Source: Candidatus Poribacteria bacterium
GTDB taxonomy: Bacteria; Poribacteria; WGA-4E; WGA-3G
Length of the DNA stretch: 64,000 nucleotides
NCBI GenBank assembly: GCA_958295945.1
Contig: OY282386.1
Span: 5,202,204 to 5,266,203, forward strand
Direction: 5' to 3'
The position numbers were made by a program, and so were the translations under genes. Positions 45,767 to 48,327 of this stretch are shown piece after piece. Position 1 is the first letter of the stretch. Each line of letters begins with the position of its first letter. The notes below the pieces were generated by a model that did not search any database, was not told where the DNA came from, and was given only the letters and a program-made list of their open reading frames with translations.

Positions 45767-46044
45767 ATAGTCCTCCTTATACAATAGCGTCCCTTCCATT
45801 TGGATTTGACACCAATAAATCAGTATGGTAACATTTTTAAGATGCTTAGTGGTATTTGATTGTAAAATCTCCTTATCAACGATATATGATAGCGTACAAT
45901 GATGAGACAATCTTACACGAATTTCATGTTAGGGTCAAGTAATCAAGTTTGAATCATATTTTGACTTAAAATTTAAGAGAAAAAATTGAAACTGAATTCG
46001 CAATTCGGTGTATATTAGATTGTAAGCATCTCCGGAGGTGCCGA

Positions 46045-46653
46045 ATGCCAGAATTAGACGATGAATTAATGCAACGTTTCCAAAAAGGCGATGAGGATGC
46101 CTTTAATTTATTAGTGCGTCGGCATCAAAAACCGTTGATCAATTTCATTGCAAGGTTCACCGGGGATAAAGATAATGCTGAAGACTTGGCACAGGAGACT
46201 TTCATTCGAATGTTTAAAGCTGCCAATCGATACAAACCGGGACGTGCTCAGTTTAAAACTTGGATGTATTTCATTGCAAAAAATCTTTGCAAGAATGAAA
46301 TTCGAAACCGAGGCCGTAGAGAAAGGTATCAGATTGACAATATCGTCTCCAACGACAATTCTGTGGATGGAAATAATGAAGAAATTGATCTTATTGCAAG
46401 TGCACCTGCCGACTCTGCCTTCCAACCAGAAGTCGCACTGGAACGCAAAGAACTTCGTAGCATAATCCAGAAAGCGATCGCAGAATTGCCAGAACAGTAT
46501 AGACTTCCCTTGGTTCTGCGGGACATACAAGGACTGAGTTATGATGAAATCGGCAATATACTTGAACTGCGCAGCGGCACTACTAAATCGCGTATCAATA
46601 GAGCACGACTTATGTTAAAGGACAAACTTAAATCATATATGGAGTTAATATGA
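46045..46653 (+). CDS. ECF-family RNA polymerase sigma factor
   Basis: Directs RNA polymerase to a stress-type regulon. Region 2 is complete (residues 10-88: FQKGDEDAFNLLVRRH, GDKDNAEDLAQETFIRMF, FKTWMYFIAKNLCKNEIR) and region 4 has the HTH (residues 148-195: LPEQYRLPLVLRDIQGLSYDEIG, SGTTKSRINRARLMLK). Region 3 is absent, as in all ECF factors. The ATG has CCGGAGGTGCCGA upstream. A TTGAAA...TATATT pair lies upstream at 45986-46017 with a 19-bp gap and is a weak promoter candidate. It overlaps the anti-sigma gene by 4 bp. Confidence 0.93.
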   Translation: MPELDDELMQRFQKGDEDAFNLLVRRHQKPLINFIARFTGDKDNAEDLAQETFIRMFKAANRYKPGRAQFKTWMYFIAKNLCKNEIRNRGRRERYQIDNIVSNDNSVDGNNEEIDLIASAPADSAFQPEVALERKELRSIIQKAIAELPEQYRLPLVLRDIQGLSYDEIGNILELRSGTTKSRINRARLMLKDKLKSYMELI

Positions 46654-47213
46654 ACTGCTTACAAGTTGAGGAACACTTTTCTGCACATTATGAAGATTCG
46701 CTTGACTACCAAACGTTACAACGTTTTGAGTCACACATAGATGAATGTCAAGGATGTAAACAAGAGTATACGTTATTCCGCGAATCTGTCCAAGCGTCAC
46801 AACAATTGCCGCAGATAGAACCTTCACCCTCATTTTCGTCAAAATTACAACAACGTCTCTCTGAAGAAGAACGCGAGACGCTCTCCTTTTGGCAACGGTT
46901 GCGACACGTTTTTGTCATACCAAAATGGGGTTACGGTTTTGCAGTTATCCTGATATTAGTATCTTCCATTTCATTCCTATACTATGATGATGTATTCAAT
47001 GAGAGTCCTCAATCTGATGTAAATGGTGAATTCATTAGTGCGCCAGGTGCTAATTCGCAAACGCAAATTCCTTCAGAAATTGATGATCGCTTCCTGCCGC
47101 GTAGTTTCGGAGGAATTGATTCTGCATTTACCACTTCATCACAACCGATGCAGCGGAACTATGTTTTAAAACGTGTGAGTTATACTACTACATCAACCGC
47201 TGGTGGGTTATAA
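46650..47213 (+). CDS. Anti-sigma factor with zinc-finger (ZAS) domain
   Basis: Starts by a 4-bp ATGA overlap with the sigma gene, so the two are coupled. The N-terminal domain contains the H-x3-C-x2-C zinc motif of ZAS anti-sigma factors (SHIDECQGCKQEY, residues about 29-41). A single membrane span GYGFAVILILVSSISFLYY lies near residues 92-110, and the C-terminal part is periplasmic, Ser/Thr-rich and without known domain. It presumably holds the sigma factor at the membrane until a signal from outside releases it. Confidence 0.88.
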   Translation: MNCLQVEEHFSAHYEDSLDYQTLQRFESHIDECQGCKQEYTLFRESVQASQQLPQIEPSPSFSSKLQQRLSEEERETLSFWQRLRHVFVIPKWGYGFAVILILVSSISFLYYDDVFNESPQSDVNGEFISAPGANSQTQIPSEIDDRFLPRSFGGIDSAFTTSSQPMQRNYVLKRVSYTTTSTAGGL

Positions 47214-47265: not shown

Positions 47266-48327
47266 ATGGTTATCAAGAAATCTCAACAAAATATGGACAT
47301 AATATATCTTTGCAAAGTGTTTGGAATAGTGTTCATTCTGTTTCATTTTTTTGTATTGACACCGAGTTTTGCGAAAGAAAGTGTATTGCAGCAATTGGAA
47401 AAAGATTTTAAGAAAGTTGTAATCACATCCCGTCCAGCAGTCGTCAAAGTAATAGCAACACATCACACTACAACACAATTTCCAAACAACATACGCAAAA
47501 TGAATGTCTCACAGCAAAGCATCAGTTCTGGTATTATTCTTGATAAGAATGGACACATTGTAACCACAACTTTTGATTTCCTCCCCAACGCAGTTGAGGT
47601 AGTTTTGAATAACAAAAAACGTGTCCCTGCTAAATTTATCGGAATGGATGACCTGACCGATATTGTTGTGCTTAAGACAGAAAATAAAATGCCTTTTCAA
47701 GTAAAACAAGGGAATACAAAACAGATAGATACCGGTTCCTGGGTCCTCACCTTAGCGAATTCTCGCGGTAGTCATCCTATCATCTCATTTGGCATCGTTA
47801 GCGGCATGGAAATATTGCCTGATCGACCCTGTGATGAACTGATTAAGATCAATACACCTATTTCTCCGGGGAATAGTGGAGGTGCCGTAATAAATACTTC
47901 AGGGGAGATTGTCGGCATGCTTCTGGCTGTCCTTTCCGAACCTCATTTGCCAGATCCTTTTATGTCTCAATTTCCTTTTCCAGCATTCAATAGACCAGGA
48001 ATTGCTTTTGCCGTTCCGATAGAAACAGTAAAATCTGTTGCTACAGAAATAATAGAACATGGTAAGGTGCGTCGCGGTTGGCTTGGCGTTACAATTGAAA
48101 CAAAGGATTTCGGTGTGTTTGTTACACGGGTGAATGAGAACAGCCCCGCGCATAAGAGTGGAATTTTACCGAGAGACGTTATACTTAAATTCGAGGATGA
48201 ACCCATAACAACCTATACCCAACTGTTAAGGTGCGTTGGCACCAAACGACCCAATACTGAAATCAAACTTAGAATCAATAGAAACGGGAACGAACAGAAC
48301 TATACCATTAAACTTGGTGAACGGTAG
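47266..48327 (+). CDS. HtrA/DegP-like protein with missing catalytic histidine
   Basis: Third gene of the sigma/anti-sigma operon, usual site for an envelope-stress protease. An N-terminal anchor or signal (VFGIVFILFHFFVLTPSFA) is followed by a trypsin-like domain with the Asp in DDLTDIVVLK and the Ser in SPGNSGGAVIN, and a C-terminal PDZ domain (RRGWLGVTIETK, SPAHKSGILPRDVIL). The His position, normally in GYIVTNNHV, reads GHIVTTTFDF, with Phe in place of the catalytic His. A neighbouring His two residues into the strand is not at the active site. The protein may therefore be a non-proteolytic sensor or chaperone. Confidence 0.85.
   Translation: MVIKKSQQNMDIIYLCKVFGIVFILFHFFVLTPSFAKESVLQQLEKDFKKVVITSRPAVVKVIATHHTTTQFPNNIRKMNVSQQSISSGIILDKNGHIVTTTFDFLPNAVEVVLNNKKRVPAKFIGMDDLTDIVVLKTENKMPFQVKQGNTKQIDTGSWVLTLANSRGSHPIISFGIVSGMEILPDRPCDELIKINTPISPGNSGGAVINTSGEIVGMLLAVLSEPHLPDPFMSQFPFPAFNRPGIAFAVPIETVKSVATEIIEHGKVRRGWLGVTIETKDFGVFVTRVNENSPAHKSGILPRDVILKFEDEPITTYTQLLRCVGTKRPNTEIKLRINRNGNEQNYTIKLGER

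Follow-up and report, generated by a model that had tools for sequence, protein, structure and literature searches.

DegS is the textbook anti-sigma protease. In this work, we ask what an HtrA-like protein can contribute to an ECF sigma factor switch when it carries phenylalanine in place of the catalytic histidine. The gene in question lies in a window of 64,000 nucleotides (the whole stretch of DNA that was analysed) from a Candidatus Poribacteria bacterium, and it was followed through 84 genomes of the phylum. The original prediction, made from the letters of the window, held that a catalytically dead copy could sense misfolded proteins and regulate the anti-sigma factor. Of this reading, the dead state, the ECF/anti-sigma operon, the maintenance by selection and a plausible ligand, the tail of the anti-sigma factor, are supported below; the sensing and the regulation enter as conditional steps of a proposed circuit. 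The gene and its relevant parts are the following.

47266..48327, + strand: HtrA-like pseudoprotease, 353 aa (open reading frame, Pfam, alignments, AlphaFold2)
47266..47373, + strand: putative Sec-type signal peptide, residues 1-36, ending in TPSFA before KES (by eye)
47572..47574, + strand: Phe103 in the place of the catalytic His (alignments to HtrAs)
47659..47661, + strand: Asp132, the catalytic Asp retained (alignment; D 66, G 2, N 1 of 69)
47866..47877, + strand: Pro201-Gly-Asn-Ser204, oxyanion-hole segment and nucleophile Ser (Pro201 in 69/69, Ser204 in 61/69)
47875-47877, + strand: codon of Ser204 within GNSGG
48070..48324, + strand: single PDZ domain (PDZ_2 62.4 bits, AlphaFold2 model)

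The segment around the lost histidine reads SSGIILDKNGHIVTTTFDF. In a joint alignment with E. coli DegP, DegQ and DegS, and pairwise with HtrAs of the PDB, Phe103 aligns to DegS His96, Asp132 to Asp126 and Ser204 to Ser201, which bears out the predicted Phe at the His position together with the retained Asp and GNSGG Ser, and leaves the His-Asp-Ser triad of active HtrAs incomplete. The architecture is that of the HtrA family, a trypsin-like domain followed by PDZ: Trypsin_2 (61.5 bits) and PDZ_2 both exceed the Pfam cut-off, and the PDZ domain had been rightly called intact. A hydrophobic N-terminal stretch with a small-x-small end (SFA before KE, or similar) was seen by eye in the window protein and in most of 18 relatives; it looks like a cleaved signal peptide, and the protein is probably exported.

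The AlphaFold2 model, a monomer without ligand computed from a 50-sequence alignment, reached pLDDT 88.4 and pTM 0.83, and was used for the fold match instead of a run with 4 sequences, which gave pLDDT 34. In VIA-align 2, peptide-bound DegS came first (Z 31.7, rmsd 3.1 over 293 residues), tied with AlgW (Z 31.1), DegQ, plant Deg1 and others lying within 1 of it. The best Foldseek match by E-value was the protease domain plus PDZ1 of E. coli DegQ, and the best-scoring NCBIfam models were HtrA families, all below cut-off. The DegS equivalog TIGR02038 scored 139.7 bits against a cut-off of 422.95 and the MamO model NF040961 (NCBIfam) 35.9 bits against 800, so both fell short.

The protein belongs to a pseudoprotease family present in 68 of the 84 Poribacteria genomes. 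In a profile search of the phylum its members scored at least 259 bits (the lowest at a contig end) and the next HtrA among the matches listed 222; a peptide search with the window protein over genome contigs gave three loci, all from Poribacteria. The 72 members, in which three pairs were the same locus from two sources, correspond to 69 distinct ones, and histidine occupies the catalytic position in none of these: Phe occurs in 55, Gly in 8, Ala in 4, Glu in 1 and Ser in 1. Of the 69, 66 retain the catalytic Asp (otherwise Gly 2, Asn 1) and 61 the nucleophile Ser (otherwise Asn 5, Thr 2, Ile 1), with a second triad residue, Asp or Ser, also gone in 9/69. Thirty other HtrA rows were aligned alike, 3 of them E. 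coli proteins and 27 poribacterial, including two duplicate readings of the L003/L005 locus; 29 have the histidine, the exception being a separate dead HtrA of genome G004. Because His is found in 0/69 distinct relatives, its loss is neither chance nor a sequencing error. The substitution reported for the window is thus real, and it is common to the whole orthologue group rather than peculiar to this copy.

A maximum-likelihood tree was built from 97 rows, 69 of the family and 28 others, and a branch supported at 100/98 separates the family from the rest; several long branches were flagged in this midpoint-rooted tree, and its basal order is unsure. That the family is catalytically dead is strongly supported by the alignments, and, given vertical inheritance, it was most likely non-proteolytic before the poribacterial families f1, f2, f3, f4, f6 and f8 diverged. 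Candidates for an alternative catalytic histidine were considered by sequence conservation and rejected, none being universal: His97 is present in 63/69, His265 in 58/69 and His296 in 52/69. The His97 position is Tyr in 25/27 active rows.

Two further observations were made in the course of this survey. Genome G004 (family f5) carries at L205 3122-8243 a second, independent triad-less HtrA of 451 aa, with TTRLIIEG, Gly at the Asp position and PSMGG; its cluster begins, by eye, with an ECF sigma gene and a short zinc-domain anti-sigma gene, and it falls outside the 69-member group in the tree, possibly a case of convergence. Genome G018 has two copies of the module (L016, L062), a native Gly-type one and a Phe-type one nested in the window's genus in the tree, which points to transfer or assembly contamination.

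The most conserved segments of the family are L2 (0.62 bits), L1/oxyanion (0.84) and the strand that leads up to position 103 (also 0.84). Variation is free in the L3 insert (2.47 bits), and the loop 103-108 is freer in the family (1.9 bits) than in active rows (1.08). Before the nucleophile loop, the QTD of active HtrAs (24/24 at each position) has become K-I-N in 66, 64 and 69 of 69 members, and the position of DegS Asp193 is Asn in 69/69. Pro161, Tyr162, Thr169, Arg178 and Asn197 are among the residues that make up the DegS activation cluster or are linked to it (PMC11642142). The family does not retain this cluster: Pro161, Thr169 and Arg178 are kept in 0, 0 and 1 of 69 (24, 23 and 23 of 24 active paralogues), Asn197 in 8/69, and Tyr162 in 51/69, but it is Arg in the window. 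The residue preceding GNSGG (Pro201 in the window, His198 in DegS) is Pro in 69/69 and in 10/24 active paralogues, within an invariant GN-GG frame. In DegP with the R207P change, the oxyanion hole stays active and substrate binding is tighter (PMC11642142). Taking R207 as equivalent to the family Pro, the cleft would appear to be reshaped for binding without catalysis. No internal stops were found in the family matches listed from the profile search, and contig ends truncate three of the 69 members (L078, L080 and L083).

The two genes in front of the pseudoprotease, and the end of the second of them, are as follows.

46045..46653, + strand: ECF sigma factor (Pfam Sigma70_r2 and r4_2; orthologue of at least 222 bits in 68/84 genomes)
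46650..47213, + strand: membrane anti-sigma factor with N-terminal zinc domain (zf-HC2, 22.6 bits against a cut-off of 22.2)
47148..47210, + strand: conserved anti-sigma C-terminal tail, residues 167-187, MQRNYVLKRVSYTTTSTAGGL (column entropy, 66 sequences)

This order, ECF sigma and then membrane anti-sigma, is of the sigma-E/RseA type, and the ECF operon setting had been correctly recognised. The anti-sigma gene is directly upstream of the pseudoprotease in 66/69 loci; in the other three the pseudoprotease lies at a contig end (L033 at base 12, L078 at the last base, L057 at most 283 bases from the start). Sigma factor and pseudoprotease occur together in 67/84 genomes, both are missing from 15, and one stands alone in 2, namely G047, where the HtrA lies at the start of a contig, and G058, where the sigma gene lies at the end of one. 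One ECF sigma/anti-sigma switch has the pseudoprotease as its dedicated third part.

The accompanying expectation, that the third gene of most ECF-linked operons is an active protease, was not supported in this genome, where 1 of the 7 ECF loci listed at E<=1e-20 has an HtrA match, among those listed, within 5 kb. The nearest own-genome sigma paralogue (46% identity) has an anti-sigma factor with a different C-terminus, and no HtrA lies beside it within the 3.5 kb read. Sigma paralogues of 46-49% identity at L210 (G000:C1:1957261), L201 and L203 share a different, repeated gene order, in which an anti-sigma gene without the GGL tail is followed by a larger gene, non-HtrA by eye. The own genome also encodes the site-2 protease RseP and several other HtrAs; those aligned (L002-L005) keep the His. 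In gene content, the window operon is like the sigE-rseA-htrA operon (Rv1223) of Mycobacterium tuberculosis, with ECF sigma, anti-sigma and HtrA genes. Rv1223 is HtrA-like and predicted to be essential (PMC3062566).

The anti-sigma tail offers a candidate ligand. Its 21 residues follow the pattern ..Y-[VI]-L-K-x-V-S-Y-T..GGL, and among 66 anti-sigma sequences it has the lowest mean column entropy of five regions, 1.04 bits, against 1.21 in the zinc domain and 2.56 in the linker. The latter, periplasmic and covering window residues 113-166, is variable in sequence and has a length of about 34-105 residues before the tail. The last residue is Leu in 63, Phe in 2 and Trp in 1 of 66, and the GGL end is found in 62/66. 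The nonsynonymous share of codon differences is 0.51 for the tail, below the 0.57 of the zinc domain and the 0.85 of the linker, which argues for selection at the protein level. The tail matches its own genome only once and is absent from the anti-sigma factor of the nearest sigma paralogue. PDZ domains prefer free C-termini (PMC8103513), and DegS cleaves E. coli RseA after Val148 (PMC8098476), a cut site that the V-S pair of the tail recalls. We infer that the tail binds the neighbouring pseudoprotease; its partner could also be RseP, an active HtrA or something else.

Coevolution was assessed by a mirror-tree test with sigma divergence controlled (62 rows; duplicates, truncated-locus rows and the second copy of G018 dropped). 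Between tail and protease domain there was no signal (partial r 0.01, 207/500 permutations as high), and between tail and PDZ a weak one (0.14, 15/500), about equalled by the cytoplasmic zinc domain (0.135, 22/500). The strongest signal came from the middle and membrane part of the anti-sigma factor (0.57 to PDZ, 0/500, and 0.45 to the protease domain). A specific tail contact is thus unsupported by this test, and the signal of the middle and membrane part is unpredicted by a guard model. The tail may be too conserved to inform such a comparison.

Upstream of the sigma gene there is a further feature.

45986..46013, + strand: ECF-type promoter TTGAAAC-N14-GGTGTAT, presumed autoregulatory (exact match to the motif upstream of orthologous sigma genes)

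Of 60 stretches in front of the sigma gene, 57 contain the pattern TTGNAAC-N14-GGTGT with no more than one difference (50 with none), and a stricter pattern is exact in 55 of the 68 genomes that have the sigma factor, 27-34 bp ahead of its match. The own genome has two exact copies of the motif. One is at the window operon; the other, at G000:C1:4723273, lies 34 bp ahead of the earliest possible start of an HtrA of 541 aa (row L002), which has Trypsin_2 and PDZ domains and keeps the catalytic His; the reversed-motif control gave zero exact matches there. Since the scan with one mismatch was noisy (45 matches against 20 for the reversed control), only exact own-genome matches were used. We infer that the motif is the promoter of the window sigma factor.

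Non-family HtrA hits, chosen among the matches listed and most without an individual His check, were available for 54 of the 84 genomes, and the motif precedes them in 42 (32 exact, 10 with one change), the own genome included. Of the 22 genomes without the exact motif 20 were read, among them these 10, which show at most one mismatch or spacer change, and G031 and G053 were left out as contig starts; the G036 hit may be another HtrA type. In G025 and G026, which have no module, the motif is absent before the HtrA (4 and 3 differences), and in G069 it is present at the HtrA though the module is undetectable. Altogether 239 exact matches occur in 73 of 84 genomes; 151 are neither at the sigma gene nor at the chosen HtrA hits, therefore the motif is not exclusive to the window sigma factor, or its regulon is wider.

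Pfam was run on seven genes downstream of the motif, one of which proved to be the own His-keeping HtrA and one another ECF sigma factor. Two genomes have the motif in front of a gene for another ECF sigma factor, recognised by Pfam in L254 and by eye in L257, which suggests that sigma factors act in a cascade or that related ECFs use a common promoter. At L249, L250, L251, L259 and L260 the motif is followed by proteins of some 245 residues that carry a probable export signal (MKR.HFY...ISDVVSN.DA..IRRLLEPWAD), and the one at L249 had no Pfam match; they are candidate regulon members or targets of another ECF.

On this evidence our preferred reading, at nearly even odds, is that the pseudoprotease is a DegS/AlgW-like guard of the anti-sigma factor working in the circuit that follows. 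The empty conserved cleft and the PDZ groove would hold the anti-sigma tail as a trapped pseudo-substrate or C-terminal ligand, and the held tail would be shielded from site-1 cleavage. When envelope proteins misfold, their exposed C-termini would compete with the tail for the cleft and the groove and so free it. The active HtrA and then RseP, presumably in this order, would next cleave the anti-sigma factor, and the sigma factor thus set free would drive transcription both of its own operon and of the gene for the active HtrA. That a DegS-type site-1 protease was turned into a permanent trap for a tail resembling both a cleavage site and a PDZ ligand, and in this way sets the response of a widespread stress switch, the cutting being left to an active HtrA under the same sigma factor, is possible though doubtful.

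Known systems share parts of this arrangement. DegS and AlgW likewise have a single PDZ after the protease domain, belong beside an ECF sigma/anti-sigma pair and head the structural list, whereas they keep the catalytic His and the activation cluster. DegS is an inner-membrane protease (PMC8103513), unlike the window protein, whose signal peptide is likely cleavable and whose gene is in the sigma operon. RseB, a periplasmic protein from the sigma operon, binds the anti-sigma factor in its periplasmic portion and keeps site-1 cleavage from taking place (PMC8103513). It is similar in the proposed guard role only, the window protein having an HtrA scaffold with PDZ and the Pfam and NCBIfam hits listed for it including no RseB.

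The same anatomy fits the opposite sign almost as well, namely that the dead HtrA serves as an adaptor or activator, presenting the tail to the active HtrA or activating that protease and so promoting cleavage. There is a precedent in MamO, a magnetosome HtrA-type pseudoprotease required for MamE-dependent proteolysis without an active site of its own (PMC4794232). Like the window protein, MamO is non-catalytic, retained and accompanied by a related active protease; it differs in having Thr for the nucleophile Ser with His116 and Asp149 kept, in binding metal and in serving biomineralisation, and the excerpt makes no mention of an ECF link (PMC4794232). His-keeping HtrAs that could be so assisted exist in the genome, one with the same promoter motif. 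Nothing specific speaks against the adaptor, although negative feedback through co-expression with the anti-sigma factor would favour the guard slightly; we consider the adaptor unlikely.

Trimers are usual in the HtrA fold, and the dead protein might act as a DegP modulator or holdase, forming mixed trimers with the active HtrA or buffering clients while the anti-sigma factor is untouched. The HtrA fold and the promoter motif shared with a His-keeping HtrA are consistent with it, but it is with the anti-sigma gene, not with the gene of the other HtrA, that the pseudoprotease gene is closely linked, and the conserved anti-sigma tail would be left unexplained, which makes this role quite improbable. 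A protease still active by unusual chemistry, a Ser-Asp dyad or another His, could account for Ser204 in 61/69, Asp132 in 66/69 and the invariant Pro201 and GN-GG frame; it has against it the His at 0/69, the nine members without Asp or Ser, the absence of any universal substitute His and a largely replaced activation cluster, and we hold it to be very unlikely. A decaying pseudogene heading for loss might be seen in the module being undetected in G029, G032 and G069 of the window's family, two of which are only 73-81% complete, but stop-free frames in 69 members (three cut by contig ends), a conserved cleft and PDZ, and presence in 68/84 genomes of families f1, f2, f3, f4, f6 and f8 leave hardly any room for it.

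HtrA pseudoproteases (MamO), ECF/anti-sigma/HtrA operons (that of the mycobacterial sigE region) and anti-sigma guards (RseB) were already known. In a literature search over titles, abstract openings and cited passages, with few subscription papers among them, we found no HtrA pseudoprotease regulating an anti-sigma factor and no paper joining Poribacteria, sigma factor and ECF; poribacterial signalling is little described. New relative to the literature searched is a widely kept dead HtrA, fixed in an ECF switch together with a conserved anti-sigma tail. Its fixation in 68 of 84 genomes of the phylum would show that the sensing and binding half of DegS is selectable without the cutting half. 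It would offer a natural "sensor only" DegS, with an exact, testable ligand candidate in the GGL tail and a candidate regulon made up of its own operon and the His-keeping HtrA.
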